Of a stretch of 29,308 nucleotides of DNA, positions 2,365 to 20,400 are shown one piece after another. Both the position numbers and the translations under genes were made by a program. The stretch spans positions 1-29,308 of IMG/VR virus record IMGVR_UViG_3300008448_000438. The stretch is one strand, 5' to 3'. Under the pieces are notes generated by a model. That model made no database searches. It had not been told where the DNA came from and saw nothing but the letters and a program-made list of their open reading frames with translations. Every line of letters begins with the position of its first letter. The first letter of the stretch is position 1. The stretch comes from a virus.

Positions 2365-2374
2365 GTCACCCTCC

Positions 2375-3761: not shown

Positions 3762-4153
3762 GCGACCTCCTTGGCGAGCGCCGACACGGTGGGGCCGTCG
3801 ATGAAGTCGAGGTTCTTGTCCTCGTACTCCTGAAGCAGTCGGTTGATGGTGTTCTCGCCGATGTGCTTGTTGACCATCACCTCCAGCGCACGGAGGTAGT
3901 CGCTGCGGAACCTGGCGATGATCTTGCCCATCCCCTCGTCCGTGTAGCCCGACCCATGGATGCCGTAGGTGGCGCCAGCCAAGGGCGACGCCTCCTCGAG
4001 GTCGGCAAACAGCGAGATGTAGAAACGCTCCTGGTTGTCCGTCTTCTCGCCGGACCTGATGTTGAAGTTGACCCCCCTGATGAAAGGCAGGCTGTCGCGC
4101 AGCAGCGCCACCATCTCGTGGGCCTGCTTGATGCTGATGTCGATGGACTTCAT
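3758..4153 (-). CDS. Unknown 131-aa protein in the recombination operon
   Basis: 131 residues beginning MKSIDISIKQAHEMVALLRD; ATGA overlaps on both sides. Mixed alpha/beta composition with no motif that I recognise. It lies between the exonuclease and the annealing protein, where some phages encode a small accessory or nuclease-modulating protein, but nothing in the sequence shows that here. Confidence 0.6.
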   Translation of the reverse strand: MKSIDISIKQAHEMVALLRDSLPFIRGVNFNIRSGEKTDNQERFYISLFADLEEASPLAGATYGIHGSGYTDEGMGKIIARFRSDYLRALEVMVNKHIGENTINRLLQEYEDKNLDFIDGPTVSALAKEVA

Positions 4154-5046
4154 GCCGCCTTCTCCTTGAGTTGGCTGATGACGATGCCGCGTTGGGTGCG
4201 GTTCACGCGGACCCCAAATGCCTCGATCTTCACGGCATCCTCGGGCAGCAACCCACGCAGGGCCTTCTTGGCGGCGTCGAGCCGCTTGTCGCTGTCGTAG
4301 TTCGAGACGAACTCGCTTGCGGCCGCGATGAAATCGCTGGCCCAGTTGGCGCTCTCGACGTCCGACGTAGTCAGCTTGCGCGTCGGCACGCCCGGGATCG
4401 GTCGATCGTCTGGAAGGTCCCAGACAATGCCGGGAGGCGTGTCGCTCTCCAGCTCGCGCAGGAACATGAGCTCGGCGCCGAGCAGCGTGGCGATGTCATC
4501 CTCGTTGCGCTGCACGACGAATGGACGCCACTCGTCGTTGCCGTAGAGCACCGAGACGAAGGTCTGCTTGAAGCCGGTGACCATCATCTGGTGGACGAAC
4601 TGCCAGTAGTTGGCCTGGATGACGGAGTAGGGCTCGTTGCCATCGCCGATTGGCCGGGTGTGCTTGGCGTCGATGAGGCCGAGAGGTTGGCGGATGGCTT
4701 CCTTGTCCCAGACAACGCCATCAGGCGTGCAGGTCTGCCAGACGCGGTCGGTGTTGACGTACTCGCAGACGCCGCCAATTCCACCAGCCTTCAGCCGTCG
4801 ATCGGCATCGGGCGTGAAGGCGGGCATCGCGTCGAAGGTCACGTTCGCGGAAACGCCGAACTTCTCGTTGTCGTGGTTGCGCTGCCACCAGGACAGGTTG
4901 AAGGCTTCGGTCACGAGGCCGAGCTGGACGCGCAGCACGCCAGACAAATCCTCTGGCTTTGCGAGTCCCTTCTTCTCCTTCCAGAGATTGATGCCGTCGC
5001 CGCGCATCAGCCGGCGCGCATCGGTTGCGCTGATCGTGAAGCCCAT
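4150..5046 (-). CDS. YqaJ/RecB-type 5'-3' exonuclease (PD-(D/E)XK fold)
   Basis: 298 residues, of which the first about 180 form a YqaJ-like viral recombinase nuclease. Catalytic elements visible in order: QLGLVTE (residues 41-47, glutamate of motif I), TPDG (D109), LIDAKHT (D126-x-K128, metal-binding D-x-K) and YWQFVHQMMVTG (147-158, the conserved Tyr/Gln helix). It should degrade double-stranded DNA ends to give single strands for the annealing protein. It is the first gene of the operon: GGAGGG precedes the ATG at 5046, and an operator-like palindrome lies at 5067-5080 behind a terminator. Confidence 0.85.
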   Translation of the reverse strand: MGFTISATDARRLMRGDGINLWKEKKGLAKPEDLSGVLRVQLGLVTEAFNLSWWQRNHDNEKFGVSANVTFDAMPAFTPDADRRLKAGGIGGVCEYVNTDRVWQTCTPDGVVWDKEAIRQPLGLIDAKHTRPIGDGNEPYSVIQANYWQFVHQMMVTGFKQTFVSVLYGNDEWRPFVVQRNEDDIATLLGAELMFLRELESDTPPGIVWDLPDDRPIPGVPTRKLTTSDVESANWASDFIAAASEFVSNYDSDKRLDAAKKALRGLLPEDAVKIEAFGVRVNRTQRGIVISQLKEKAA

Positions 5047-5066
5047 CAGGTTCCCTCCTATTGAAG

Positions 5067-5080
5067 ATGCAAAATTGCAG
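5067..5080. promoter_or_regulatory. Operator-like palindrome in front of the recombination operon
   Basis: ATGCAAAATTGCAG matches the inverted repeat CTGCAA-nn-TTGCAG at all arm positions but the first. It sits 21 bp upstream of the exonuclease start and just downstream of a terminator, so it can only serve this operon. On the minus strand it reads CTGCAATTTTGCAT, followed by AATAGGAGG. The best sigma-70-like match around it (TTGAGT, 17 bp, TCAATA) would put the transcription start inside the ribosome binding site, so the promoter itself is unresolved. Confidence 0.65.
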
Positions 5081-5090
5081 CACTCAAGGC

Positions 5091-5132
5091 AAAAAAAATC
5101 ACGACGGGGCCTTTTGCGGAGGCTCGTCGTGA
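5091..5132 (-). terminator. Rho-independent terminator ending the cro-like operon
   Basis: On the minus strand a perfect 8-bp stem (TCACGACG ... CGTCGTGA) is followed at once by eight T. The stop codon of the gene ending at 5099 is inside the 3' arm of the stem, so the last codons double as terminator. Confidence 0.85.
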
Positions 5133-5545
5133 AGACGAAGCAGGTCGTAGCCCATGCCGACCAGCCAGTTCTTCAGCTCGTCGCGATCGTCTGGGCCGCC
5201 GTTGATGCGCAAGTATCCGCCGTTGCCTTTGTCGCCAAGGCGGCGAACGTAGACCCAGCGATACTTCTTGGGCTCCTCTTGTTGTGTCGTGCGAAACCAG
5301 AGGAGCCGATAGAACATGCCGTCTTCGTCCTTGTCGACGGCAAGGTAGTTCTTGTCGCGCAGGACGCGCAGAGCATCCACGATGTCTTGCTGGCTTGCGC
5401 CAGTTGCCTCGGAGATCGAACGCTGCGAGATGCGCACCCAGCCGTAGGAACTGGCTTCCAGGGCCAGCAAGGCTGCGACATGGATGTGCAGCGACGTCGA
5501 CGTGCGGTCCCCTACGAGACCCATGGGAATGGCGACAGTCTTCAT
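5099..5545 (-). CDS. Winged-helix DNA-binding protein of the early region
   Basis: 148 residues. Residues about 14-85 look like a winged helix: HIHVAALLALEASS, then RISQRSISEATGASQQDIVDALRVL as the helix-turn-helix, then a beta wing (YLAVDKDEDGMFYRLLW). The C-terminal half (YRWVYVRRLGDKGNGGYL) is beta-rich. It may be a replication-initiation or regulatory protein; similar small winged-helix proteins occur beside phage replication genes, but no specific family is recognised. The start overlaps the stop of the DUF1064 gene by ATGA, and the 3' end is built into a terminator. Confidence 0.6.
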   Translation of the reverse strand: MKTVAIPMGLVGDRTSTSLHIHVAALLALEASSYGWVRISQRSISEATGASQQDIVDALRVLRDKNYLAVDKDEDGMFYRLLWFRTTQQEEPKKYRWVYVRRLGDKGNGGYLRINGGPDDRDELKNWLVGMGYDLLRLHDEPPQKAPS

Positions 5546-5889
5546 CGCTTCTTTCTCCCGGTCGTAATTCTCAGTTCGATTCCAAGCAGGGCCTTCATCA
5601 TCTTCGCCTTGAGCTTGAAGATCGCCGTCTTGATGCCCTTGAAATCCTCGACGATTGTCGTCCCAGCTTCTTCGTAGACGAAGTCAGCGACGTAGGTGCA
5701 AAGCTTGAAGCCGTTGACTGCTAGCGGGTATGCCACTTGGAGCCGGAGGTTCTTGATGTGTCCGGCTTGTTCGAGTCGCTTGAGGTCGAGGTATCGCAGG
5801 GCTTCGCCCTTGCTTGCGAAGGCGATGCCTTCGATCGTCGTGCGCCGCGCCCTGTACTTCGAGTGGAAGCTCGAGCTGGCGGTGATCAC
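5542..5889 (-). CDS. DUF1064 protein, PD-(D/E)XK nuclease-like
   Basis: From the GTG at 5889 the product is 115 residues, the usual DUF1064 length, and begins about ten residues before the conserved SKYRARRT. Motifs: SKGEALRY (E29), CTYVADF (D69) and IVEDFKG (D82-x-K84), the metal-binding set of the PD-(D/E)XK nuclease fold. Roles proposed for the family include recombination endonuclease or junction resolvase; this is not proven. The start lacks a clear ribosome binding site, and an in-frame GTG at 5922 has GGAG about 10 bp ahead. The gene overlaps the upstream HTH frame by more than 200 bp, which is unusual. Confidence 0.65.
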   Translation of the reverse strand: MITASSSFHSKYRARRTTIEGIAFASKGEALRYLDLKRLEQAGHIKNLRLQVAYPLAVNGFKLCTYVADFVYEEAGTTIVEDFKGIKTAIFKLKAKMMKALLGIELRITTGRKKR

Positions 5890-6127
5890 CCGTTGGCGAC
5901 GCCCCGACAACCTCGAGCTCACGGCCAAGGAACTCCAGCCAGATGCAGAGGTTGAATGCCGTGGGTGGACGCAAGGACGTCTCCCACATGGCAAGCGATC
6001 CGCGGTGGAAGCCGCACTTGTCCTCGAGGTCCCATCGTGACCATCCCTGGCGCTTGCGTTCGGCGCTAAGCGCCGCGACGAGCTTGTGCCAGAGCGGCTG
6101 GTTTCTGACGCAGCTGTAGCTTCCCAA
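5684..6127 (-). CDS. HTH (XRE-type) protein overlapping DUF1064
   Basis: From a TTG at 6127 (AAGGAG about 10 bp ahead) the frame gives 147 residues. Residues about 11-75 form a Cro/C1-type helix-turn-helix: LVAALSAERKRQGWSRWDLE, CGFHRGSLAMWE, then FNLCIWLEFLGRELEVV. After about residue 80 the frame runs through the DUF1064 gene in another phase and looks non-coding (Arg/Pro/His-rich), so either the true protein is about 80 residues with a lost stop, or a frameshift joins it to DUF1064. It overlaps the Cro-like gene by 62 bp. Confident for the HTH, not for the C terminus. Confidence 0.55.
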   Translation of the reverse strand: MGSYSCVRNQPLWHKLVAALSAERKRQGWSRWDLEDKCGFHRGSLAMWETSLRPPTAFNLCIWLEFLGRELEVVGASPTGDHRQLELPLEVQGAAHDDRRHRLRKQGRSPAIPRPQATRTSRTHQEPPAPSGIPASSQRLQALHLRR

Positions 6128-6302
6128 GGCGTTGGATCTCCTTGGCGATGCGTTCTGCTGTCCCGTGGCGAGGCGATGTCTGACGCTTCATCCACCTCTG
6201 ATAGGTGGTGCGGGCAACACCTGCTGAGCGCACGGCGCTCTCAAGAGAGACGTTGTGCGCCGTTGCCATGTTGGAGAGCAGATCGAGGGGGTGTGACAAC
6301 AT
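6066..6302 (-). CDS. Cro-like small HTH regulator
   Basis: 78 residues from the ATG at 6302, or 67 from the ATG at 6269. Residues about 12-60 contain a helix-turn-helix: VSLESAVRSAGVARTTYQRWMK, then TAERIAKEIQRLG. Divergent from the repressor across a shared operator, the standard position of Cro, so it probably antagonises the repressor and commits to early leftward expression. No Shine-Dalgarno sequence precedes either ATG. The best promoter (TTGCAA, 17 bp, TTAAGA at 6315-6310) would start transcription almost on the ATG at 6302, suggesting a leaderless mRNA. Confidence 0.7.
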   Translation of the reverse strand: MLSHPLDLLSNMATAHNVSLESAVRSAGVARTTYQRWMKRQTSPRHGTAERIAKEIQRLGKLQLRQKPAALAQARRGA

Positions 6303-6417
6303 GACATTGTCTTAATGCAAAAATGCAGTCTATTGCAAGCTGCACTTTTGCACCAATGTGTGCTATTGCGGTGCACGCGAGTCGCGTTGGTAGCACCATT
6401 TTGACGGGAGCATTTAC
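6303..6417. promoter_or_regulatory. Divergent promoter/operator region of the lysis-lysogeny switch
   Basis: 115 bp between the Cro-like gene and the repressor gene. Two sites of the CTGCAA-nn-TTGCAG family: 6315-6328 (ATGCAAAAATGCAG) and 6340-6353 (CTGCACTTTTGCAC), centres 25 bp apart, plus a more degenerate TTGCAAGCTGCA at 6333-6344. Minus-strand promoter: TTGCAA (6338-6333), 17 bp, TTAAGA (6315-6310). A weaker plus-strand candidate is TTGTCT (6307-6312), 18 bp, TATTGC (6331-6336). The first operator falls in both spacers, so one bound repressor could act on both directions. GGGAG at 6406-6410 is the repressor gene's ribosome binding site. Confidence 0.7.
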
Positions 6418-7014
6418 ATGAGCAACGATCGTGACAGCATTGGCAGGTGGATGCTGGACGTGATGCGGCGCAACAACTGGTCGGCCGAGCATTGGGCAAG
6501 ACTCGCCAATGTCCCCTCGACCAGTATCACGCGCTTCCTCAAGCACAAGGACACATCCTGGCCCTCAACAAGAACAGTCGTGGCCTTGAGCAAGATTGCT
6601 GGTGTAGCCCCAAGCTTTGGCGTTGCCGCAACGCAGGGAGCGCGCATCCCGTCCGTTTCGATGGAGCAGCTGCTGGACATGGATGTCCGGGAGCTAGTCG
6701 CGTCGCGGCGCTGGTCTTCCATCACCGTGAGCGGCGACATCCCAATTGGATGCGTTGCCATGACGATGACGCTTGAAGTGCTCGAGGCGGCCGGCATCTT
6801 CATGGGAGACCAACTGATCGTTGACCCCAGCGCACAGCCTGAGCGTGGATCGCTGGTCATCATCTCAACCGGCGATCGCGTGTCTGCTGGCGCCTACATG
6901 CCCCCAGTCGTGGTCGAGCGGCGCATGGCGCCGGGAGAGCCCAACGCATGGCCGCTCGACTTGATTGAAATCCGCGGCGTCATTCGCCGCGTCGATCGGG
7001 ACTACCCGTTGTAG
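6418..7014 (+). CDS. Phage repressor, HTH plus LexA/S24-like C-terminal domain
   Basis: 198 residues. Residues about 22-45 (WSAEHWARLANVPSTSITRFL) are the helix-turn-helix; residues about 105-198 (GDIPIGCVAMTMTLEVLE, FMGDQLIVDP, GSLVIISTGD, IEIRGVIRRVDRDYPL) follow the beta-rich dimerisation/peptidase fold of LexA-type repressors. The usual catalytic serine motif (GDSM) is not present where expected, nor is a clear catalytic lysine, so self-cleavage may be lost. It is the only plus-strand gene in the left half. It should bind the palindromes at the divergent region and at the two other minus-strand operons. Its last 13 bp overlap the end of the convergent ParB-like gene. Confidence 0.8.
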   Translation: MSNDRDSIGRWMLDVMRRNNWSAEHWARLANVPSTSITRFLKHKDTSWPSTRTVVALSKIAGVAPSFGVAATQGARIPSVSMEQLLDMDVRELVASRRWSSITVSGDIPIGCVAMTMTLEVLEAAGIFMGDQLIVDPSAQPERGSLVIISTGDRVSAGAYMPPVVVERRMAPGEPNAWPLDLIEIRGVIRRVDRDYPL

Positions 7015-8630
7015 GAGATGCCCGGCGGCTGCCATCCGCCGCCACGCTTCTCCAGGGCGAGCTCGATGCGGCGGGCAAGGCCGCCCTTGGGCTCGCCGTT
7101 CTGGGTCTGGACATCGACCTGCTTGCCGATCTCGACCAGCTGCTCCTTGGTGAGCCGCTTGAGGACTGGCAGCGACGCCATGTTCATGTCCATGGGCGAC
7201 GCTTCGCAAGCGTTGAGAACGGAAAGGCAGTTCTTGTCGTCCGGCTTGTAGGCGTGCACCACGTTCTGGGCCATGGCGATGACGAGCTTGCCCAGATCGA
7301 CCTGCGTCATGTCGAGCAGCTTGTCGATGCTGAGCCCCTCGGCTAGGGCGTCCTCCTGGAACTTCTCGACCGTCTCTCGCGCCTTCTTGAGTCCCGGCGT
7401 GTTCATGAAGATGTCCGCCGTCGGCGCCAAGAGGTTGGTGGGACGCTGCCAGACGCGGAAGCTGCTGGACAGGATAACGGCAAGCGCCACGTTGACGTGT
7501 CCGATGAGCGCCTGTCGCGTGTAGTCGGCGAGGTACTGCGCCGCCATGTCGCGAATGCCGGATGAGACGTCTTCGCCGGCCTCACCGGACTCTGCCTTCT
7601 CCTTCTCCTTCGCCTTCTGCTTGGCCGCCTTCTCCTTGGCCTTCTGGTCCTCGATCCTGACGACAGGCGTCCTGATCTCGATGCGCGCATCGGGAGTCAG
7701 AAGCACGACGGCGCCCGCCTTCTTGGGGTCGTTCTTGGCGTTTGGGTCCGAGATGTAGGTCGTGAAGTACGAGCTGGACGCCGAGCTCTCGAAGAATTCG
7801 ACCCACTTGTGCTTCGACTTCAGGGCTTCCGCGATCTCCTGGCCGCGCTTGCGCTGCAGCTCCATGACCAGCGAGTAGGGCTCGAAGCTGACCTCGCCAA
7901 GCAGGTTGCGGACGACGGTGCCGCCGGCCTCGAGGAACTGCTGCTCCGTGAACTCGACGTCGCCGGCATTGACGCGCTCCTTGGCGATGTCGCGTCGGAG
8001 CATCCGGGCATCCGGCCCCTCGTCGTTGTAGCTCGAGTAGTCCTTGAGGCGCCGCAGCACGCCACGCTGCTTGCCGTCGGAGAGCTTCGAGAGCTCGAGC
8101 GCGAACTCCGTCCCGATCTTGCCCTTCTCCAGCTTCGCCAGCGCATCCGGCACGAGCCTGGTCAGCTGCGCGGCGATCTTGGCGTTCTCGTGGGGCTGGC
8201 CAAGGATGATGGCAGCCTCTCCGAGGTCGGTGACGCCGCTGGCGAAGATCGCCAGCAGGCCGCGCACCGTGTCGCCCAGCGACATCGCCGAGCGCGAGGT
8301 GTTCTCGGCAAGGCTGACGGCCGAGAGCGAGCGATCGTCCATGCCGTCAGGCAGGACGACGCACGGGACGCGATCCCACTTGAGCCAGATCAGCGCCTTG
8401 AGGCGCGTGACTCCGGCCACGACGTTCCACTCGTTGTCGATGCGCTTGACCAGCAGCGGATTGAGGAGGCCGACGTTCTTGATGGAGAGCGCCATGGCCG
8501 CGACGTCCATGTCGCTGCGCGAGGACCGAACGTTGCCAGCCCACGGCACCAGCTCGGCGACCTGCAGGTAGGTCAGCTGGTCGTCGGTGGCGATGGGCTT
8601 GGCGACGATGTTGTCGACGGTGTCAGGCAT
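7002..8630 (-). CDS. Large ParB-like (ParB/Srx fold) DNA-binding protein
   Basis: 542 residues from the ATG at 8630 (AAGGAG 8 bp ahead). Residues about 20-120 form a ParB/sulfiredoxin N-domain: GLLNPLLVKR (54-63), NVVAGVTRLKAL (69-80, the box II position) and ENTSRSAMS (109-117, the E-N-x-x-R phosphate-binding motif). A helical region (134-190) follows, as in ParB HTH domains; a Lys/Glu-rich linker lies near 327-355, and an uncharacterised 190-residue C domain ends the protein. No ParA gene is in the window, so it may be a CTPase/nuclease-type early phage protein or a transcription factor rather than a partition protein. First 8 bp overlap the upstream gene. Confidence 0.75.
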   Translation of the reverse strand: MPDTVDNIVAKPIATDDQLTYLQVAELVPWAGNVRSSRSDMDVAAMALSIKNVGLLNPLLVKRIDNEWNVVAGVTRLKALIWLKWDRVPCVVLPDGMDDRSLSAVSLAENTSRSAMSLGDTVRGLLAIFASGVTDLGEAAIILGQPHENAKIAAQLTRLVPDALAKLEKGKIGTEFALELSKLSDGKQRGVLRRLKDYSSYNDEGPDARMLRRDIAKERVNAGDVEFTEQQFLEAGGTVVRNLLGEVSFEPYSLVMELQRKRGQEIAEALKSKHKWVEFFESSASSSYFTTYISDPNAKNDPKKAGAVVLLTPDARIEIRTPVVRIEDQKAKEKAAKQKAKEKEKAESGEAGEDVSSGIRDMAAQYLADYTRQALIGHVNVALAVILSSSFRVWQRPTNLLAPTADIFMNTPGLKKARETVEKFQEDALAEGLSIDKLLDMTQVDLGKLVIAMAQNVVHAYKPDDKNCLSVLNACEASPMDMNMASLPVLKRLTKEQLVEIGKQVDVQTQNGEPKGGLARRIELALEKRGGGWQPPGISYNG

Positions 8631-9480
8631 TGCAGAGCTCCTTCCATGCAGCCTTGTTGGTGAGGGCGAGGACACGGTCCTCGCGTTGGGCGCGCACCTG
8701 GGCGCGGTTGGCTCGAGCGTTGGAGTGCGTGGCCCAGCTGGTGAGGACGTTGTAGAGGTCCCATGCGGTGCCGTTCTCGCCGTGCTTGGTCGCGTAGTCG
8801 GCGAACAGCGTGTCGCGCAGCGAGTCGTTGCCCTGCGGCATCAGGTTAAGCAGCTCGCGGGCGTTGCCGAGCGACAGGCGCACGGTCGACCAGTGCCGCA
8901 TGTTCTCGACGTAGCCGTTGAACGAGTCCGCGGCCTTGACGACGGCCTCGATCAGTCGCGACGAACGCTCGCCGAAGTTCGAGGTGTGCTTGGCGCGGAC
9001 GTCGATCGCCGTGTCGCCGATGACGCAGGTGTTGGCGCAGACGAACCGGAAGAAACCGGCGGTGCCGCGGAACGAGTACGACCCGTCGTAGCTGTCGAAC
9101 ATGATGATGCGCAGCGCGACGGGATCGCCCTGTCCGACATCCTTCGTGTGCGCGGGAAACAGGTACTGGCGGAAGACGCGGCCGCCATTGTGGCTCATGT
9201 CCGTCGCCACGCGCATATCGGTGGTGTCGAGGCCCGAGCGCATGATGGCCTCGTCGAACCGGGAGAAGTTCTCCTGGTACGGGACGAGGTGGTAGTCCGA
9301 GGTGTGCAGGGCGATCGTGTCGCCGCTGTCTTCGCGCCAGATGCGCTGATAGCCGGCGATGGGTGAGCCGTTGGCGTCGAAGACTTCGCCGGCGCTGACG
9401 GGAAACCACTTCGGGGTTTCGTGGTTGATGGGGATGAACCCGTGACGGTCCATCATCGACGAAAAAGCGCCATCAGGCAT
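8623..9480 (-). CDS. DUF932 phage/plasmid-like protein
   Basis: 285 residues. Signature blocks of DUF932: SDYHLVPYQENFSRFDE near 61-77, LRIIMFDSYDGSYSFRGT near 124-141 and FFRFVCANTCVIGD near 144-157 followed by SNFGERSSRLIEA. The family is common in phages and conjugative elements, often next to ParB-like or replication genes; its biochemical role is unknown. ATG at 9480 with AAGGAG 8 bp ahead; its start overlaps the upstream stop and its end overlaps the ParB-like start, so the three are translated as a unit. Confidence 0.8.
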   Translation of the reverse strand: MPDGAFSSMMDRHGFIPINHETPKWFPVSAGEVFDANGSPIAGYQRIWREDSGDTIALHTSDYHLVPYQENFSRFDEAIMRSGLDTTDMRVATDMSHNGGRVFRQYLFPAHTKDVGQGDPVALRIIMFDSYDGSYSFRGTAGFFRFVCANTCVIGDTAIDVRAKHTSNFGERSSRLIEAVVKAADSFNGYVENMRHWSTVRLSLGNARELLNLMPQGNDSLRDTLFADYATKHGENGTAWDLYNVLTSWATHSNARANRAQVRAQREDRVLALTNKAAWKELCNA

Positions 9481-9748
9481 GGAGTTGCTCCTTCTTCTGG
9501 GGTTCGATGAGATAGAGGAAGCTGGCGTTCATCTTCACGATGAGGTCGCGCAGCTCGCGAGCGACGCTGGCCCGCTCCGAGAAATAGAAGGCATCGCCTT
9601 CCTCGCTCTTCTCGAGGCAGATGACTTCGTAGAAACGCGCCTCACCGACGGCGTCGTTGAGGATCTCGGCGAGCAAGCCAAGCTTGTCGACCGGCATCTT
9701 GCGGATGTGGTCGATGAGCGGTTCGGTGTTCAGGATGATCTTGGTCAT
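9473..9748 (-). CDS. Unknown 91-aa protein
   Basis: 91 residues from the ATG at 9748, which overlaps the upstream stop by ATGA. Predicted mostly helical with a central EVICLEKSEEGDAFYFSER stretch that reads like a beta hairpin. No family recognised. It is translationally coupled between a membrane protein and DUF932. Confidence 0.6.
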   Translation of the reverse strand: MTKIILNTEPLIDHIRKMPVDKLGLLAEILNDAVGEARFYEVICLEKSEEGDAFYFSERASVARELRDLIVKMNASFLYLIEPQKKEQLHA

Positions 9749-10056
9749 GTCTGGCCGCCTCCTGACCGGCCACCAGAACCTGGCCGGGCCTTTCCAAAGA
9801 GACAGACGAGAAAAAAGACGATGATCAAAGCGATGGTGATTGGAAAGGCAGCGACGGCGATCGTGAACAGCAGCGCGCTTGCGATCACGAACAGCCAGAG
9901 CAGGAGCCCAGTTCCAAAGAGGAAGATGAGCAATCTGCGAGCCTTGCGCCAGAAGGTGGCAAGGCAGCCAAGCATGGTCCTGGCTATCTGGGACCTGCTT
10001 CGCCACGCAGCGTGAAGCAGCAGCGCAACGCCGATGAAAAAATTTCCGGGTATCAT
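9745..10056 (-). CDS. Small membrane protein, about 2-3 transmembrane helices
   Basis: 103 residues from the ATG at 10056 (GGAGG 10 bp ahead). Residues about 5-17 are hydrophobic, and residues about 41-88 are an almost unbroken hydrophobic block (LLIFLFGTGLLLWLFVIA ... ITIALIIVFFLVCLF) that fits two membrane spans. A basic loop (RSRSQIARTMLGCLATFWRKARR) lies between. The Gly/Arg-rich tail faces the cytoplasm by the positive-inside rule. A superinfection-exclusion or host-modifying role is possible from the early position but unproven. Confidence 0.65.
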   Translation of the reverse strand: MIPGNFFIGVALLLHAAWRSRSQIARTMLGCLATFWRKARRLLIFLFGTGLLLWLFVIASALLFTIAVAAFPITIALIIVFFLVCLFGKARPGSGGRSGGGQT

Positions 10057-10058
10057 TG

Positions 10059-10406
10059 CTAGCTGACCTCCCAGACAGGAAGGCTTGATGCCTTTGCTGC
10101 CTTGATGATGGTTTGAGGATTGGTGGTTGGCATGATCATCACGCCAACCTTGTGTCCAGCCTCGGCTGACTTCGTTGCCCATCGAAGCATTGAGTCGTCA
10201 CGATGCTTGAAAGGCACGACTGCGATCTTGTTTTTCCTGGCCCACTTGGAGACCAATTGGTGCGCAGGGCTTTCCGCTGGATTGTTGCTGGCTTGCCAGA
10301 TGACAATCCGTTTGTGCTTGCGCTTCAGGGCAGAGAACCACTCAGCAACCTGGTGCTTGTCCACGCCCTTGTCGCCGCCGGCGACAACAATGACAAACGG
10401 CTTCAA
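10059..10406 (-). CDS. Degenerate SLOG/DUF2493-like nucleotide-binding protein
   Basis: 115 residues from a TTG at 10406 that overlaps the stop of the upstream small gene (TTGA); AAGGGA lies 8 bp ahead. N-terminal FVIVVAGGDKGVDKHQ looks like the first strand and Gly-rich loop of a Rossmann-like SLOG fold; HQLVSKWARKNKIAVVPF near 49-66 matches VADWARKNRVAIRQF in the DUF2493 fusion protein encoded at 11919-12926. The classical GxxGAD motif is missing. A longer frame to a GTG at 10532 exists but would overlap the whole upstream gene. SLOG proteins bind nucleotide-derived ligands; here function is open. Confidence 0.55.
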   Translation of the reverse strand: MKPFVIVVAGGDKGVDKHQVAEWFSALKRKHKRIVIWQASNNPAESPAHQLVSKWARKNKIAVVPFKHRDDSMLRWATKSAEAGHKVGVMIMPTTNPQTIIKAAKASSLPVWEVS

Positions 10407-10534
10407 GAAGATGGTCCCTTCCTCCGTGAAGAGCGACGCAGGGCTTGAAGAGCTCGAGCCAGTTCCAGGGCTGTCACCAACAGCGTGACCGCTGGTGGCA
10501 GGAATCGAGTCGCCATGTTGATGAAGTGCCACAT
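10403..10534 (-). CDS. 43-aa single-span membrane protein, first gene of its operon
   Basis: A short gene starting at the ATG 10534, with AGGAGG 4 bp ahead, and ending in TGA at 10403 that overlaps the next start. The product begins MWHFINMATRFLPPAVTLL; residues about 10-30 are hydrophobic enough for one membrane span, and the C terminus is strongly basic (RALQALRRSSRRKG). It lies directly behind the operator at 10547-10560. The strong ribosome binding site and the overlap with the next gene are the evidence that it is real. Function unknown; small basic membrane peptides in phages include toxins and exclusion factors. Confidence 0.55.
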   Translation of the reverse strand: MWHFINMATRFLPPAVTLLVTALELARALQALRRSSRRKGPSS

Positions 10535-10546
10535 GGGCCTCCTATC

Positions 10547-10560
10547 CTGCAAAATTGCAG
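10547..10560. promoter_or_regulatory. Perfect-arm operator in front of the third minus-strand operon
   Basis: CTGCAAAATTGCAG is a 6-2-6 inverted repeat with perfect arms, the best example of the family. It lies 13 bp upstream of the start at 10534 and directly after a terminator, the same layout as at 5067-5080. On the minus strand both read CTGCAATTTTGCA followed closely by ATAGGAGG. Confidence 0.7.
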
Positions 10561-10561
10561 A

Positions 10562-10606
10562 ACGAAAGGAAAGCAGGGCCTTCCGAATTGCTCGGAAGAC
10601 CCTGCT
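10562..10606 (-). terminator. Rho-independent terminator after the second ssb
   Basis: Arms AGCAGGG/CCCTGCT and CTTCCGA/TCGGAAG with a 5-nt loop give a 14-bp stem interrupted by one mismatch; the minus strand continues TTTCCTTTCGTT. It separates the second ssb gene from the operon starting at 10534. Confidence 0.8.
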
Positions 10607-10612
10607 CGGTGG

Positions 10613-11050
10613 TCAGAAGGGGACGTCGTCGCCCTTCCACGTCGGCTGCGTGGTCGGCGCCTCGGGCGCCGGCGCATCGGCATCCTCGGCGGGCGCCGTC
10701 GTGGCGTCAGCGCGCTTGGCCGACAGGATGGCGAACTCGCCATTGTTGCCGACAACGACGTCGGTGGCGTAGCGCGTAAGGCCGTCCTTCTCGTACTTGC
10801 TGTGCTGCAGCTTACCGCTCACGCGCACGAGCTGACCCTTGCGGCCGTGGGCCTGGAGGATCTTGACGAGGCCTTGCGACAGGACGGTGATGCGGTGCCA
10901 GTCGGTGCGCTCGACGGGCTGGCCGTTGCTGGTCCAGCGCTCCGTCGTGGCGACGCTGAGCGTCGCGAACGACTTGCCGGACTGGGCGGTGCGGATCTCG
11001 GGGTCGCGTCCGAGATTGCCGATGATCTCGACTCGGTTGACGTTGAACAT
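10613..11050 (-). CDS. ssb: Second single-stranded DNA-binding protein
   Basis: 145 residues from the ATG at 11050 (GAGAGGAGA ahead). OB-fold core: MFNVNRVEIIGNLGRDPEIR, then RTDWHRITVLSQGLVKIL, then LQHSKYEKDGLTRYATDVVV. A Pro/Ala-rich linker leads to WKGDDVPF, a typical SSB acidic tip. It differs widely from the SSB at 2375-2776 (for example NRVEIIGNLG against NTVYLIGNVG), so it is not a recent duplicate. It stands alone between two terminators with a hairpin in its leader, so its expression is probably set separately from the recombination operon, perhaps for replication. Confidence 0.92.
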   Translation of the reverse strand: MFNVNRVEIIGNLGRDPEIRTAQSGKSFATLSVATTERWTSNGQPVERTDWHRITVLSQGLVKILQAHGRKGQLVRVSGKLQHSKYEKDGLTRYATDVVVGNNGEFAILSAKRADATTAPAEDADAPAPEAPTTQPTWKGDDVPF

Positions 11051-11111
11051 CTGCTGTCTCCTCTCTGTGGGGGACCCGGAATGGGTCCAATGAAAAAACG
11101 CCGGGCCTTGG
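11051..11111 (-). promoter_or_regulatory. Leader of the second ssb: hairpin plus conserved block
   Basis: Minus strand, 5' to 3': AAGGCCC-GGCGTT of the terminator, TTCATTG, a 6-bp stem with 5-nt loop (11072-11088, GGACCC/GGGTCC), CACAGAGAGGAGA and the ATG. The same order with a different stem occurs before the DUF2493 fusion gene at 12927-12987. Confidence 0.55.
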
Positions 11112-11137
11112 ATGCGTCCATCCAAAGCGCCGGCGTT
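11093..11137 (-). terminator. Rho-independent terminator upstream of the second ssb
   Basis: Outer arms AACGCCGG/CCGGCGTT and inner arms TTGGATG/CATCCAA with a 4-nt loop; the minus strand continues TTTTTT. Very strong. It must end a transcript that starts between this point and the terminator at 11376-11418, or one that reads through the latter. Confidence 0.8.
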
Positions 11138-11375
11138 CCCAAGGCTTGCCCGCAGGCATAGGCTGCGGGGCTGACCCTGTTCCATCCACAACGGGGAGGC
11201 GTCGTCTGCACGCGCCAGGCAGCTTGGTGCGATCGTCTTGCGTCGATCTGCGGCAAGTCGTCAGCATGCTACATCAACGCCTCCTTGAGATTTGAGATCG
11301 GTTTCGAGAGGGGTTGCAGCAGCGCAGGACGCTGCAACTGGCGTGGCTGAGCCTGCGTATCGCCAATCACCTCGC
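11138..11375 (-). ncRNA. Gene-free stretch between two terminators; candidate small RNA
   Basis: 238 bp with minus-strand terminators at both sides and no convincing coding frame. It holds inverted repeats: CCCGCAG/CTGCGGG around 11150-11169 and TTGCAGC/GCTGCAA (11314-11320, 11331-11337). A strong AAGGAGG near 11283-11289 is followed on the minus strand by TTG-ATG-TAG, so it opens at most a two-codon frame; an ATG at 11267 opens a frame that would run through the terminator into ssb and looks spurious. The assignment as RNA rests only on structure. Confidence 0.25.
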
Positions 11376-11418
11376 AAAAATCCCGCAGGGCCTTGTCAAG
11401 AGACAAGCAGCTCGCGGG
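11376..11418 (-). terminator. Terminator of the small zinc-protein gene
   Basis: Minus strand: CCCGC, internal loop, CTTGTC, 4-nt loop, GACAAG, GCCCT, GCGGG, then ATTTTT. The stop codon of the gene (11396-11398) lies inside the hairpin. Confidence 0.7.
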
Positions 11419-11662
11419 TCTCGCGTGGCTGGCGACGCGGACATCCCTGCCGCTGGATTTCAGCGGGCATGAGGCCGCACTTGGGGCAGGTGAATTCCGA
11501 AGCGAGCATGACCTCGCTTGGCTCCACTTTGCGAACGACGATGTCGTCAGGAGCGGTGACGCGAACGAACCAATCGTTCACGTCGTTGGCTCGGTCGCGG
11601 ACAGCAACCTTGGTCTTGGTAATGGCGTAGCCAATCTTGTACGCCAGTCGCTCGATGATCAT
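11396..11662 (-). CDS. Small protein with a CPxCG zinc motif
   Basis: 88 residues from the ATG at 11662 (AAGGAGATCGAC ahead). The N-terminal 30 residues are basic and helical; residues about 58-75 contain FTCPKCGLM and, later, QGCP, which could give three or four zinc ligands. No family recognised. It forms its own transcription unit: hairpins upstream and a terminator that includes the stop codon. The frame is open far upstream, but the upstream sequence is G-rich hairpin DNA and not protein-like. Confidence 0.6.
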   Translation of the reverse strand: MIIERLAYKIGYAITKTKVAVRDRANDVNDWFVRVTAPDDIVVRKVEPSEVMLASEFTCPKCGLMPAEIQRQGCPRRQPRETRELLVS

Positions 11663-11860
11663 GTCGATCTCCTTGCAGGGCTCAGCCCTGGGGTGGGGGA
11701 GTTTCCGGGGGCGCAGGGGGTGGAGGGGGACCGGGGGCGGGAGCCCCCAGTCCCCCTCCGGCCACCCGCGTAGGTGATGCAGAATTGAGTGCGGATGGGG
11801 CGGAGGGGGATAGGGGAGGCGAGAGCCTCCCCGAGACCCTGTGCCGTTGCTGCGACGTTG
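11663..11860. other. Gene-free G-rich stretch with nested hairpins
   Basis: About 200 bp with no plausible gene. Structures seen: CAGGGCT-c-AGCCCTG (11677-11691) right before the ribosome binding site at 11666-11672; a long hairpin 11722-11758 with 10-bp outer arms (GGAGGGGGAC/GTCCCCCTCC) and inner arms GGGGGC/GCCCCC; and GGGGAGGC-GAGA-GCCTCCCC (11813-11832). GGAGGGGGA is present twice (11722-11730, 11802-11810). The plus strand between 11690 and 11741 has seven runs of three to five G, a G-quadruplex-prone stretch. Confidence 0.6.
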
Positions 11861-11907
11861 GAAGAAAAGAGCTGGCGGCGCCGTCGCGGGACGGCTGCCG
11901 CCAGCTC
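11861..11907 (-). terminator. Terminator of the DUF2493 fusion gene
   Basis: Arms GAGCTGGCGGC/GCCGCCAGCTC (11 bp) continue as GCCGTC/GACGGC with one bulged base; the minus strand then reads TTTTCTTC. One of the strongest hairpins in the window. Confidence 0.85.
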
Positions 11908-11918
11908 GAGGTGTCAGG

Positions 11919-12926
11919 TCAGGGCGCGGTGCTGTCCGCGTCCGGCGACGGTGCCGCCTGGCGCACCGGGCGGAGGTCGTCACCGACCGTCCAGCCCTGC
12001 GGCGGAATCGGCGCGAAGGTCGGGATGCCTTCGCGAATGGCACGGCCGACGAGGTCGCCGACCTGTGCCTTGCCGCCGAACGCCAGCACAGCGTCGGGGT
12101 TCTGCGCGACCATGACCTTGTTGCGGGTGAACCCGGCGTTGTTGCCGTGGCGGTTGAAGTCGAGGCCAAACTGTCGGATGGCAACGCGGTTCTTGCGCGC
12201 CCAATCGGCGACGGTGCCGTCGACGCCCGCGGCGCGGTCGCCGGTGTAGAGCCAGAGCCGGTCTCCGTATTTCGCACGGGCCCGGTCCAGCCACTCGGTG
12301 ACGAGCTGGCGGTCGTGGGCGTCGGGCGAGCCCATCACCACTACGCGGAACCCCTTGGCCTCGGGGACGGCGGGACGCACGTTGCCGAGCGCCACCTCCG
12401 TGGCAAGCGCAAGGGCGGGGTGGTAGACGCGCTGCGTCTGTGAAGCGGGGACCCACGGCTCGCCGACGATCTCCGAGAAGGCGTCGGTCGCCCCGTCAAG
12501 AGCGTGGCGCAGCGCGGCGATGTCGGCCGCGTGCTCCGCTACGGCGTCGGAGATGCGCGACTGCTCGACGCCCTCCAACTCGGGCGGGAGCGCGCCGGGT
12601 TCGGAGGCGCTAGCCGTCTCGCGGGCCATCGCCTGTTCTGTGCGGTTGAGCTGCCGCTGAATGGCAGCACAAACCGCGTCAAGGATGTTGCGCTGCATCC
12701 GCTTGCTCACGCACCCCTCGTCGAGGAGGTGCATGGCGTCGCGGAAGGTGTTGGCGACGCCGACGGCGCCGTCCGCGAGCGCGTCGGGGTCGGTGACCTC
12801 GTTCGCGTACTCGCGGGTGATGAGGCGCTGGCGGTGCTTGTGCGCCTCGCGGGCCGACGCCCACTCGGAGCGCGGGATGTAGTCGCCCTCGGGGCGGTTC
12901 AAATCAACGTGGATCTTCGAAGTCAT
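11919..12926 (-). CDS. DUF2493 (SLOG family) protein with unknown N-terminal domain
   Basis: 335 residues from the ATG at 12926 (AGAGGAGA ahead). Residues about 192-310 form a DUF2493/YspA-type SLOG domain: FRVVVMGSPDAHDRQ (first strand and loop), LYTGDRAAGVDGTVADWARKN (position of the usual GxxGAD...A..WA motif), then AGFTRNKVMVAQNPDAVLAF (conserved RN..M...D motif). Residues 1-190 are helical and unlike anything I know; a linker at 100-120 divides them. SLOG domains bind nucleotide ligands, and some act in nucleotide signalling and anti-phage systems; here the ligand is unknown. Base composition is markedly GC-rich compared with the SLOG-like gene at 10059-10406. Confidence 0.75.
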   Translation of the reverse strand: MTSKIHVDLNRPEGDYIPRSEWASAREAHKHRQRLITREYANEVTDPDALADGAVGVANTFRDAMHLLDEGCVSKRMQRNILDAVCAAIQRQLNRTEQAMARETASASEPGALPPELEGVEQSRISDAVAEHAADIAALRHALDGATDAFSEIVGEPWVPASQTQRVYHPALALATEVALGNVRPAVPEAKGFRVVVMGSPDAHDRQLVTEWLDRARAKYGDRLWLYTGDRAAGVDGTVADWARKNRVAIRQFGLDFNRHGNNAGFTRNKVMVAQNPDAVLAFGGKAQVGDLVGRAIREGIPTFAPIPPQGWTVGDDLRPVRQAAPSPDADSTAP

Positions 12927-12987
12927 GTGCAAATCTCCTCTGTGAAGAGCGGTCAGCAACCGCTCAATGAACCAACGCTGGGCCTTA
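12927..12987 (-). promoter_or_regulatory. Leader of the DUF2493 fusion gene, copy of the second-ssb leader
   Basis: Minus strand: AAGGCCC-AGCGTT, GG, TTCATTG, a 7-bp stem with 5-nt loop (12947-12965, GAGCGGT/ACCGCTC), TTCACAGAGGAGA and the ATG. Blocks flanking the stem match the leader at 11051-11111, while the stems differ in sequence. Confidence 0.55.
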
Positions 12988-13002
12988 CTTGCAGGCCCAG
13001 CG
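12966..13002 (-). terminator. Terminator-like hairpin after the DUF4326 gene
   Basis: A perfect 10-bp stem (CGCTGGGCCT/AGGCCCAGCG) with 7-nt loop at 12976-13002; the minus strand continues TTGGTTCATT, a weak T tract. The TAA stop of the DUF4326 gene lies in the hairpin. Confidence 0.6.
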
Positions 13003-13263
13003 GACAGCGCTACGGATCACCTCTGCGTGGCACCTCTGAGGAGCGCAATGGCAAGCAAGATCGCGACCTTGAAGTTCGCGAAGTCGCTCCTTCGTCACCA
13101 CGTTGCGCAAAATCATGCGCCAGAGCCATTGCCGATAGAGCGCGATCACCTGATCGCGTGTGCCATCGCGGCCGATAACGAACGGGTTGCCCCATGGGCC
13201 GGACCTATCAACGCGCACCGCGTTGGGACCTATGTGGTCAGTCTTCACGTTCAGAATTCGCAT
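12985..13263 (-). CDS. DUF4326 protein
   Basis: 92 residues from the ATG at 13263 (GAAGGAGG ahead), the normal DUF4326 size. Signatures: DRSGPWGNPFVIGRDGTRDQ (19-38), YRQWLWRMI, then LRELQGRDLACHCAPQRCHAEV (61-82) with C71, C73 and C78-H79. The family is widespread in phages and bacteria, and its function is not established; the conserved GNPF, Arg and Cys/His residues suggest a small-molecule or nucleotide site. It is the first minus-strand gene left of the non-coding centre. Confidence 0.85.
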   Translation of the reverse strand: MRILNVKTDHIGPNAVRVDRSGPWGNPFVIGRDGTRDQVIALYRQWLWRMILRNVVTKERLRELQGRDLACHCAPQRCHAEVIRSAVRWACK

Positions 13264-13359
13264 CGTCGCCTCCTTCAAGGTTGAGGTATGTCGCTGGGGG
13301 GTCATCATCCCAACCGCATCGGGGCAACGGGGAGGGGCCCGCGTTGTCAAGGACCCGCA

Positions 13360-13759
13360 GCGAAGCGAGGGCGGTGGCATGCACCGGAGGGCCGCCTCCA
13401 TGCGATCAGCGCGAGGCGAAGCCTTGCGATGAGCGCGTGGAGGTGGTCCCGCTCGGTGCACCCGAAGGGCGAAATGCGAAGCATTTCGTGCCAACCGGGG
13501 GCGCGTCTCGCCGCGGTGACCTGGCGGCTGGACGCAACGCAGCGACCCTCCTTGACGACGTGGGAGGGGACTCCCCCGTTACACTTGCGCGGGTGGGGTG
13601 GTGGTTCCCCAGCAAAATGGGAGGGGCGCCTCTTTCGCGCCCCTCACCTCGGGCGCGTCAGCGCCAACCAAGAAGAGCGATAGGGGATCGAAGCCCGAAG
13701 GGCCGAGACGCCGAAGGCGGCTCGGGGCGAAGCCCGAGAGCCCCGGTCGGCGAAGCCGA
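13360..13759 (+). repeat. Array of hairpins with GAA triloops
   Basis: Plus-strand hairpins, stem-GAA-stem: 13360-13366 (weak), 13411-13427 (7 bp with one G-T pair), 13461-13469 (3 bp), 13470-13488 (8 bp, CGAAATGC-GAA-GCATTTCG), 13693-13703 (4 bp), 13709-13719 (4 bp), 13721-13738 (6 bp plus inner pair) and 13747-13759 (5 bp). Stems differ in sequence while the loop stays GAA and always lies on the same strand. Confidence 0.7.
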
Positions 13760-13788
13760 ATCGCCCCTGCGCGTCGGAGGCATAATGG

Positions 13789-13824
13789 TTGACAGGTCAA
13801 GGATGTGGTCCTGCAATGCCGCAG
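13789..13824 (+). promoter_or_regulatory. Candidate rightward promoter with operator
   Basis: TTGACA (13789-13794), 17 bp, TGCAAT (13812-13817) is a reasonable sigma-70 match. The -35 lies in a palindrome TTGAC-AG-GTCAA (13789-13800). The -10 lies in CTGCAATGCCGCAG (13811-13824), which matches the repressor-site family at 12 of 14 arm and spacer positions. It would drive the packaging and virion genes. Confidence 0.4.
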
Positions 13825-13884
13825 AAGCGCCTGCAAAAACAGGTGGCATTATTGCCACTTGACAGGCGATTTCGCAGGGGCGTA

Positions 13885-13906
13885 GGGGAGGGGGCAGGGG
13901 GAGGGG
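13885..13906 (+). other. G-quadruplex motif upstream of the terminase gene
   Basis: Four G runs of 4, 5, 5 and 4 separated by A, CA and A, on the coding strand, 8 bp before the ribosome binding site CGGAGG of the gene at 13925. Loops this short make stable quadruplexes in DNA and RNA. Confidence 0.6.
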
Positions 13907-13924
13907 CGAGAGCGGAGGCCGCAG

Positions 13925-14377
13925 ATGCCGTCAGATGCCGATGTGATCGACCCAGAACCGATGCCGCAGCCCAAGAAGCGCGTGGTGAGGATCAAGGGGA
14001 AAGCGCAAGGAATGCGCGGCGTGAACGTAGCCGACAGGGCCAACGTCGTGGCCATAGGCGACGCCAATTACAAGGCGCTGGAACTGATAGCGAAACGAGG
14101 ACTGACGCAGAGGGATGCGGCAGCAGAAGCGGGGATCGGGGAAGGGGCGTTGAGTCGTCTGCTCGCCAAGCCTGAGGCGCGTGATCTTCTCGCCGAGATG
14201 CAGGAGACGCAGCTGCGAGTCCTGAGGTCAAAGGCCCTGTGCAGGACGGAGGTGCTGCTGGACGAGGCGCGAAGCGAGCGCGTGCGGCTTGAGGCAGCAC
14301 GGCTGGTGCTGGAGCAGAGCAAGCCGGAGACGGTAGCCGCAGCGGGTAGTGTCGAGTTGGTCATAGACCTCGGCTGA
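13925..14377 (+). CDS. terS: Probable terminase small subunit
   Basis: 150 residues from the ATG at 13925 (CGGAGG 6 bp ahead). After a basic N terminus (PKKRVVRIKGKAQ) there is a helix-turn-helix, LTQRDAAAEAGIGEGALSRLL at about 59-79, followed by a long helix (PEARDLLAEMQETQLRVLRS) suited to oligomerisation. That layout, and its place as first gene before the large terminase, fit a small terminase that recognises the packaging site. Sequence similarity to a named family is not obvious. It is first in the rightward operon, behind a promoter-like element and a G-quadruplex motif. Confidence 0.65.
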   Translation: MPSDADVIDPEPMPQPKKRVVRIKGKAQGMRGVNVADRANVVAIGDANYKALELIAKRGLTQRDAAAEAGIGEGALSRLLAKPEARDLLAEMQETQLRVLRSKALCRTEVLLDEARSERVRLEAARLVLEQSKPETVAAAGSVELVIDLG

Positions 14378-17431: not shown

Positions 17432-17683
17432 ATGCCTCTCTTGAAAAGCCTCTTCGAAGCGCTTGGCGACTACAAAAAAGCGTGGGACCACGAAGAAAAT
17501 CGCAAGAGGCTTTCAAGGGAAGATGCCGATCGTGCAAAGCTTGACAAGGAAGACGAAGGCAAGCCGATGCGCGCATTCGATGATGACGGCAACGAGATTC
17601 CCTGGCCTCCGACTGGTAGCGACATGGAGAAGCCTCCGGCTGCCATGATCGGCAAGAGATTCAAGTCGCTGCTTGATCGCTAG
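17432..17683 (+). CDS. Unknown 83-aa charged protein
   Basis: 83 residues from the ATG at 17432; GGAGG in the end of the upstream gene serves as ribosome binding site. The middle is highly charged (NRKRLSREDADRAKLDKEDE), the C terminus ends GKRFKSLLDR. Lower GC and different codon choice from the neighbouring packaging genes suggest later acquisition. No function assigned. Confidence 0.55.
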   Translation: MPLLKSLFEALGDYKKAWDHEENRKRLSREDADRAKLDKEDEGKPMRAFDDDGNEIPWPPTGSDMEKPPAAMIGKRFKSLLDR

Positions 17684-17710
17684 AAGCAATTCAGCTGCGA
17701 GAAGCACCTC

Positions 17711-19243: not shown

Positions 19244-19532
19244 ATCGGAAGTCGTCGCCCGGCTGAGGTCGACCCTCGCAAAGCCCGCCGACAGCGGCGT
19301 CCACCCGCGCAAGGTGGAGCTGGCCGCTCACTCCGCGTTGTCGAAGCCCGACGGCGCGATGCTGCTCGAATACCTCGAGCAACTGACCCTGCGCACCGTG
19401 CATCCGCCGGGATCGCTCAACGAAGTGCTGCAATACCGCGAAGGCATGCGCTTTGCGGTATGGCTGATGCGTCACCTGATGGAAAGAGGAGCCATCGATG
19501 TTCCAGCGAAATCCCTACCCGAGAAGCCCTGA
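19236..19532 (+). CDS. Unknown 98-aa protein between portal and scaffold
   Basis: 98 residues from a TTG at 19236, supported by GGGGGAGG 5 bp ahead and the overlap with the portal stop. Helical, with SLNEVLQYREGMRFAVWLM near residue 65-83. Similar small genes sit between portal and scaffold in many podoviruses without known function. Overlaps the scaffold gene start by 35 bp. Confidence 0.6.
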   Translation: MDESEVVARLRSTLAKPADSGVHPRKVELAAHSALSKPDGAMLLEYLEQLTLRTVHPPGSLNEVLQYREGMRFAVWLMRHLMERGAIDVPAKSLPEKP

Positions 19533-20400
19533 CGACGCGTCTGGCGGCCCCGCGGCCGCGCCTTCCGGTGAGCCGCCGCCGCTGAGCGGCACGAGGTCTG
19601 GCGGCCTGACTGCTGGCGACCAGGCCGCGATCGCCGCGCAGCGCGCTGCCAATCCTGAAGCCCCTCTTCCCGATGGGTGGCTTGCGATGGAGAAACGACC
19701 GGACTGGCTGCCCGAAAAGTTCTACGACGCCCAGCGCAAGGCCGCTCGCCTGTCCGACTTCGGCAAGGCCTACGGCGAGGTCGAGCGCAAGGTCTTCACG
19801 CGCAGCGACGACCTGCGTCGCCAGGTCGAGCGCGACTTCGAGGAAGGCCGCATGAAGGCCCGGCCCGAGAAGCCCGAGGGCTACCAGGTCAAGCTGCCCG
19901 AGGGATACTCGAAGGAAAACTTCGAGCTGAACCTCAACGAAGCCAACCCGATGATGAAGTGGTGGCGATCGACTGCGCACGAGCTTGGCATGAACCAGAA
20001 CCAGTTCGAGGCCGGCATCGCTGCCTACGTCGATGGCATGGCTGCGGACATGCCCGACATCGACGCCGAGGTGAAGAGCCTTGGCGAGAACGGCATCCAG
20101 CGCATCGCCAACCTCCAGAAGGCCCTGACCAAGACGCTCGGCGCCGACTGGGAAGTGCTCAAGCCGCTCGCGACTTCGGCCAAGGCTTTCGAGGCGCTCG
20201 AGAAGCTTGTCGATGCACGCCTCATGGCAGGCAACCAGCCGCAGGGTGCGCCTTCGGCACCGGCCGGCGATGGGCGCACCCGCGAAGACCTGCGCAAAAT
20301 GATGATGGACCCGCGCTACCGCGACCCGTATCGCCGTGACCCGGCTTTCGTGCGCGAAGTTGGCGCTCTTCAGCAGCGTCTCTATGCAACCGGCGCATAA
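19498..20400 (+). CDS. Capsid scaffolding protein
   Basis: 300 residues from the ATG at 19498 (AAGAGGAG ahead). Low-complexity Pro/Gly/Ala N terminus (1-60), the typical scaffold motif RPDWLPEKFYD near 67-77, a charged helical body with YGEVERKVFTRSDDLRRQV, and a basic C-terminal helix (DPRYRDPYRRDPAFVREVGAL near 275-295) of the kind that binds the capsid protein. Acts inside the prohead during assembly and then leaves. Position between portal and capsid gene is as for T7 gene 9. Confidence 0.82.
   Translation: MFQRNPYPRSPDDASGGPAAAPSGEPPPLSGTRSGGLTAGDQAAIAAQRAANPEAPLPDGWLAMEKRPDWLPEKFYDAQRKAARLSDFGKAYGEVERKVFTRSDDLRRQVERDFEEGRMKARPEKPEGYQVKLPEGYSKENFELNLNEANPMMKWWRSTAHELGMNQNQFEAGIAAYVDGMAADMPDIDAEVKSLGENGIQRIANLQKALTKTLGADWEVLKPLATSAKAFEALEKLVDARLMAGNQPQGAPSAPAGDGRTREDLRKMMMDPRYRDPYRRDPAFVREVGALQQRLYATGA

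Follow-up and report, generated by a model that had tools for sequence, protein, structure and literature searches.

The locus and its genes

The window analysed here is the whole of an IMG/VR virus record of 29,308 bp (IMGVR_UViG_3300008448_000438). It comes from a podovirus and encodes terminase subunits, a portal of the T7 type (PF12236), a capsid protein and tail proteins. By terminase, the nearest annotated relatives are Pelagibacter phage Hodr (52%) and Methylophilales phage MEP301 (41%). Since these two genomes are about 34 kb long and the contig of a 59%-identical relative (L014) is 40 kb, the window contig is probably incomplete. Late genes (portal, terminase, capsid and tail) run rightward from 13925, beginning with that for the terminase small subunit (13925–14377, + strand; phrog_2538, E 1.3e-7), and leftward genes occupy positions 1–13266. 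The first of the latter is a DUF4326 gene (13007–13266, − strand; PF14216, E 6.6e-25) with AAGGAGG before its ATG. It is followed on the same strand by a YspA/SLOG-family gene (11919–12926; PF10686, E 4.7e-12), an SSB gene (10613–11050; PF00436, E 9.3e-25), a DUF932 gene belonging to a leading-region family in plasmids (8623–9480; PF06067, E 3.6e-26), a ParB_N-domain gene (7002–8630; PF02195, E 2.6e-8; PHROG ParB-like, 4e-18) and a second SSB gene (2375–3010; PF00436, E 6e-24). This set is of the plasmid-establishment type and resembles the leading region of the F plasmid, which holds ssb, a ParB-like gene, psiB and a DUF932 gene.

Just before the rightward operon, a conserved stretch at 13786–13880 contains TTGACAGGTCAA and GTGGCATTATTGCCAC palindromes and a second TTGACAGG, and is perhaps the operator/promoter for the terminase genes. 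Among the late genes, a stretch of about 250–270 bp (17432–17710) with a small gene (17432–17683) is missing or divergent in the loci L007, L004, L005 and L003.

A one-strand array of C(GNA)G hairpins

The first-pass annotation had described eight GAA-loop hairpins with differing stems on one strand in the divergent centre. All eight are present on the + strand, with loops at 13362, 13418, 13464, 13478, 13697, 13713, 13729 and 13752, and the closing pair is C–G in every case (CGAAG). The stem is at least 4 bp long in six of the eight (one via G–T wobbles), 3 bp in one and 2 bp in one; opposite-strand equivalents (TTC loops, stems of at least 4 bp without wobble) number zero in the region. Shuffled sequence gives far fewer such structures: six GAA hairpins with a stem of at least 4 bp are observed in the 400-bp region, against a mean of 0.2 and a maximum of 3 in 2000 dinucleotide shuffles, of which 0/2000 reach six. 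The hairpin-densest 400-bp windows of the 29 kb all overlap the array, and 30 shuffles of the whole window give a maximum of 3.

In the left half of the array lie a 2-bp mini-hairpin, GC-GAA-GC or d(GCGAAGC), at 13360–13366; the hairpin CGCGAGGC-GAA-GCCTTGCG (13410–13428, one wobble), which forms the tip of a 49-nt imperfect hairpin at 13395–13443; and two adjoining hairpins, CCC-GAA-GGG and CGAAATGC-GAA-GCATTTCG, at 13461–13488. The corresponding left half in L007, a close relative with flanks 94–96% identical, is unrelated sequence that is again rich in C–G-closed hairpins, with the loops GAA, GTA, GCA and GGA. Because this half differs in sequence yet carries these four loops, the loop rule of the array is C(GNA)G and not GAA alone; the fixed GAA loop that had been noted holds in the window but not as a general rule. 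Loops of the C(GNA)G class are exceptionally stable in DNA.

The R1 module

Sequence comparison indicates that the right-hand hairpins (13677–13764, + strand) form one conserved module, termed R1, a branched single-strand DNA element of about 90 nt with a predicted four-way junction within an outer stem. In an alignment of 66 non-redundant copies, the layout consists of the outer stem P0, a junction stem around the hairpins P1, P2 and P3, and then P4. The 5' strand of P0, GCGAT (13677–13681), pairs with ATCGC at 13760–13764, and its column pair 18:117 occurs as TA 27, AT 18 and CG 8. The 5' strand of the junction stem (13683–13689) pairs with 13738–13744 with one internal A·G, and contains two covarying column pairs: 23:87 is GC 38, CG 19, TG 6 and TA 1 among the 66 relatives, and 27:83 is GC 27, TA 18, CG 9 and AT 7. 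Inside the junction stem, P1 is GCCC-GAA-GGGC (13693–13703). P2 is CGAGaC-GCC-GAA-GGC-G-GCTCG (13704–13724), where column pair 50:62 takes five standard pair types and the outer pairs are fixed by the search pattern. P3 is GGGC-GAA-GCCC (13725–13735), with column pair 70:78 as TA 49, GC 10 and CG 7 and a pattern-fixed GNA loop. P4, TCGGC-GAA-GCCGA (13747–13759), varies in length among relatives.

Standard pairs fill 96.1% of cells in the 66 copies, compared with 30–43% for slid controls. Two-sided changes number 167 against a shuffle mean of 53, with 0/500 shuffles reaching 167, and the covariation score is 0.305 versus 0.075. The pattern used to collect copies fixed CGAGAC, GGCTCG and GCGNAGC, and the constancy of these positions reflects that choice; column pairs 18:117, 23:87, 27:83 and 50:62, which covary, were free of this constraint. 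The covariance model recovers the window element at 13665–13782(+) with 78.5 bits (E 3.7e-21, or 2.6e-23 with filters off). Selection for single-strand DNA structure is thus well supported, and the compensatory changes bear out the annotation's claim that structure in a single-stranded molecule is what matters here. The row of hairpins that it described is real, but the true unit is larger, comprising the branched module of about 90 nt and a long hairpin of about 370 nt.

The long hairpin between R1 and the leftward genes

The second part of the unit is a long imperfect hairpin predicted by ssDNA folding at 13290–13660 (+ strand, about 370 nt). It holds the first four GAA hairpins and is a candidate single-strand promoter stem. 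Folding of 13270–13800 gives −165.5 kcal/mol (z −8.1) for the + strand and −144.7 kcal/mol (z −5.5) for the minus strand. Within the fold, a 16-pair stem joins the GTTGTCAAGGA region (5' arm, 13343–13353, + strand) to TCCTTGACGAC (3' arm, about 13549–13559, + strand), and the pairing puts a −35-like TTGACG, contained in the 3' arm, in duplex. The same GTCAAGG...CCTTGAC stem occurs at a similar distance in about 30 of 132 plasmid/ICE elements, mostly with TTGACG-N16-TACAGT; this test shows the stem and not its direction, since the stems are palindromic and the reverse complement scores almost as high. The phage stem has no −10 box at 16–18 nt spacing after TTGACG, and a consensus scan of 12900–14000 found no standard dsDNA sigma-70 promoter.

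Two phages that are 94% identical, the window (13050–13660) and L007 (3190–4010), differ in the whole left half of the unit, which has been swapped. The breakpoint falls on the 5' edge of R1, most of DUF4326 is gone from L007, and the replacement sequence folds even more strongly (z −11.4). DUF4326 is absent from L010 and L012, where the YspA gene directly adjoins the unit, with its start at 457 nt from R1; the unit has thus persisted next to a different gene.

Relationship to the F plasmid and gene arrangement behind R1

The R1 model, built from the 66 relatives with no F sequence included, matches the F plasmid twice: immediately upstream of ssb at 58075–58184(−) (65.1 bits, E 4.6e-17) and at 63463–63572(−) (55 bits, E 5.4e-14). 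The two matches are the ends of a 552-bp repeat whose copies are 89% identical and about 5.4 kb apart. In F, Frpo2 lies upstream of ssb and Frpo1 about 5 kb away; the Frpo ssDNA is predicted to fold into stem-loops that rebuild −10 and −35 boxes, and once Frpo is deleted, the downstream leading genes that were tested lose their early expression (PMC9849209). Homology of R1 to the end module of the Frpo1 and Frpo2 (ssiD) repeats of F is therefore well supported at the level of the covariance model. No sequence similarity was found between the long stem of the window and that of F.

The arrangement of genes is also shared. The hairpin strand in the window (+) is the template strand of the leftward (−) genes, as in F and other plasmids, and the 5' edge of R1 lies 411 nt from the DUF4326 start, compared with about 450 nt in F. 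A curated plasmid/ICE set gave 129 cases with a gene on the 5' side of the hairpin strand; 99 of these genes point away (99:30), and for 37 of the 99 the R1-to-gene spacing is 355–440 nt. These counts are descriptive only, because the gene calls came from a home-made six-frame hexamer caller and the copies are related. The left-hand gene families behind R1 are led by DUF932 (27/91), DUF2958 (7) and RadC (6), and also include SSB, antirestriction and ParA genes. Several R1 copies on one plasmid precede separate operons, as in L026. On an IncN plasmid, copies are interspersed among ccgA, ardA, ccgC, ccgD and ardR and lie on the complementary strand. A survey in Nature in 2024 reported anti-defence genes behind such single-strand promoters in conjugative elements (PMC11541004). 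The leading region of ColIb-P9 (NC_002122, 1–70 kb) gave no R1 match despite its experimentally shown single-strand promoters. R1 is therefore not essential to every Frpo-type promoter, and R1-containing and R1-lacking promoters may be two types.

Distribution of R1

Positions 13640–13800 match DNA in 1,081 plasmid records; where the matches are best, the records have nothing annotated. A search with the R1 consensus hit 1,522 plasmids, of which 1,329 are conjugative; in E. coli genomes it hit 423 places, and 421 of these are plasmid-borne. A degenerate R1 pattern was present in 55 viral contigs and at least 118 genome contigs. The carriers are mostly conjugative plasmids and integrative elements, together with dozens of phage contigs. 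In viral loci, the model gave 118 matches across 53 loci, with up to eight per 12 kb. Large genes in these loci include integrases, S24 repressors, Erf proteins, terminases and portals, and many of the R1-bearing viral contigs are accordingly real phages.

Some IMG/VR phage contigs (L028–L079) carry multiple copies of R1, often as close inverted pairs (− then +) 150–500 nt apart. Close neighbours in phage contigs are inverted, minus then plus, in 22 of 32 cases. The left-gene orientation bias is weaker in phage contigs than in plasmids (58:41) and copies lie on both strands. For these reasons a simple T-strand role fits badly in phages, and the inverted pairs with weak bias leave room for divergent promoters or two-strand priming.

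Neither blastn of the array region against 50,697 phage records nor a search of phages with the plasmid R1 consensus gave a match, and the phage-type consensus gave one weak match (E 5e-3), to an unannotated faecal phage. Hodr and MEP301 contain no R1 match even with filters off. The 59%-identical relative L014 has a degenerate R1-like element (8226–8304; 14.8 bits, E 0.02 in 60 kb) in the equivalent position, upstream of its terminase genes; P2 of this element has GGAG/CTCC as in F. Separately, an in-frame insertion of about 48 bp near the 5' end of the post-portal gene (19498–20400 in the window) occurs in L007 (about 9711–9765) and L008 (about 1797–1850) and is absent from the window, L003 and L009. 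It consists of three GNA hairpins, GGCC-GGA-GGCC, CGCC-GCA-GGCG and GGAGCGCC-GAA-GGCGCTCC, and resembles part of R1; hairpin fragments seem able to move.

Interpretation and alternatives

The reading that we favour, and hold to be probable though far from secure, takes the array as part of an Frpo-like promoter/primer unit of single-strand DNA at the divergent centre of a podovirus genome. It draws directly on the structure, on the homology with Frpo, and on the genes behind the unit: which strand is their template, how far away they start and which families they belong to. From these we infer promoter or primer activity in the phage, folding in vivo, the polymerase used, transcription and its timing. 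The proposed unit would have two parts, R1 (13677–13764) and, to its left, the long hairpin with the paired TTGACG (13290–13660). The + strand would become single-stranded, or be extruded from supercoiled DNA, and the stable C(GNA)G hairpins would fold the exposed strand. The stem would then present a duplex promoter to host RNA polymerase, which would transcribe leftward with the + strand as template through the DUF4326, YspA, SSB, DUF932, ParB_N and second SSB genes; primer RNA would be an alternative output of a polymerase at the unit. In a dsDNA phage, the single-stranded state could come from gyrase-driven extrusion with SSB as in N4, or from a replication intermediate. It counts against a promoter that a dsDNA phage has no obvious single-stranded entry stage.

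Among the alternatives, the folded + strand might be a single-strand priming site or part of an origin, recruiting host RNA polymerase or primase for complementary-strand synthesis, with gene expression secondary. Frpo itself is reported to make primer RNA (Masai and Arai 1997); because Frpo also primes second-strand synthesis, use in priming or as an origin stays among the candidates, and the position in the divergent centre and the inverted, two-strand copies in phage contigs would suit it. The plasmid/ICE copies, however, lie upstream of genes for which the hairpin strand is the template (99:30), and multiple copies on one plasmid precede separate operons, so that we regard priming as the primary role as rather unlikely. 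The unit could instead be an inherited passenger that arrived with a plasmid leading-region gene block and has no present function in the phage. The plasmid-like gene set agrees with this, as does the proneness of the unit to recombination (the swapped left half in L007 and the loss of DUF4326 in L010, L012 and L007). Yet close relatives keep R1 and its folding while neighbouring sequence is replaced, the new left half of L007 is again hairpin-rich, and L014 retains a degenerate R1 at the same place; a passenger is improbable on this evidence.

The first-pass annotation had left three options, an origin, a hairpin-promoter cluster or a structured RNA, and had mentioned the hairpin promoters of the N4 virion RNA polymerase. 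Rightward transcription of the array into a riboswitch, leader or small RNA would account for the strong covariation, which is usual for RNA, and the + strand is sense for the terminase operon. RNA would favour GNRA loops, whereas GNA, GNNA and GNAB are DNA-stable classes known from published tetraloop selections. The P1 loop, which the search pattern left unconstrained, is GNA in 21, GNAB in 21, GNYA in 11, GNRA in 1 and other in about 11 of the 66 relatives (C–G-closed), and GNA in 47, GNAB in 33, GNYA in 28 and GNRA in 7 of a larger set of 141 copies. GNRA is thus avoided and DNA-stable types are used; furthermore, the strand of the right-hand gene is near random (79:53), and R1 in plasmids sits upstream of template-strand genes. 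Rfam gave no match at gathering score over the window, and relaxed searching (E up to 10) only chance microRNA-type matches; HEARO/IscB omega-RNA was tried as a candidate and gave no match. Loop type and position make a structured RNA very unlikely. In N4, supercoiling together with SSB extrudes the promoters as short template-strand hairpins, which have a 3-base loop and a sheared G·A pair (PMC4496689). In general form, a short stem with such a loop on the template strand is found here too (TCGGC-GAA-GCCGA, inside R1). Nevertheless, the module has its homologue in Frpo, a promoter read by host RNA polymerase, and the window proteins searched, including a 1163-aa late protein, gave no RNA polymerase match in the 29 kb of a contig that may lack part of the genome. 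On these grounds, early promoters served by an injected virion polymerase are scarcely credible. Of what the annotation had raised, single-strand structure, compensatory changes and a promoter option stand, whereas the N4 relationship and the separate hairpins as units do not; the promoter type indicated by the covariance match to F is that of Frpo in conjugative plasmids.

Single-strand promoters have been described in conjugative plasmids, and the usual explanation of how they work is that the plasmid arrives as ssDNA. The occurrence of one and the same module in podoviruses and in temperate phages, ahead of similar genes, would imply either early exposure of these strands in dsDNA phages or action of the element through extrusion. 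As a tentative generalization, which we consider possible and more doubtful than the reading of this locus, tailed phages might use Frpo-type DNA-hairpin promoters on R1, shared with plasmids and ICEs, for anti-defence or establishment genes, with supercoil-driven extrusion in dsDNA and often with inverted pairs driving divergent operons. R1 provides a structure-based signature, made up of covariation, loop rules and a calibrated model. With it, such promoters and the anti-defence genes that follow them should be found far beyond the reach of sequence similarity to F.

Comparison with known systems

Several known systems share features with the unit. The mini-hairpins of the d(GCGAAGC)/d(C-GNA-G) kind supply the loop chemistry common to every hairpin of the array; they are a physical motif and not a genetic element, and in the window they are built into a conserved architecture. 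The N4 virion polymerase promoters likewise are GNA-type triloop hairpins on the template strand upstream of early genes, and SSB is involved in N4, but there a single short hairpin without a branched R1 serves a dedicated phage polymerase. We regard them as an analogy in mechanism and not a family match. The R1 copies on the IncN plasmid occupy the leading-region place known for the CUP repeats of IncN plasmids (pKM101/R46). CUPs, however, are defined as upstream repeats bound by ArdK, the likeness here is one of co-location on the IncN plasmid alone, and R1 may be only part of a CUP.

The closest system is Frpo1/Frpo2 of F. Both have the R1 module recognized by the covariance model, the same strand geometry, R1 about 400–460 nt from the first gene, and SSB, ParB-like and DUF932 genes nearby. 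They differ in that Frpo usually sits in the leading region of a conjugative element, whereas the window has terminase, portal and capsid genes and, among its proteins searched in Pfam, no relaxase or transfer family, the contig being probably incomplete. The long stem of the window, a putative promoter in the phage, is unrelated in sequence and has no clear −10. The unit thus departs from known Frpo in its carrier, a tailed phage, and in its unrelated long stem.
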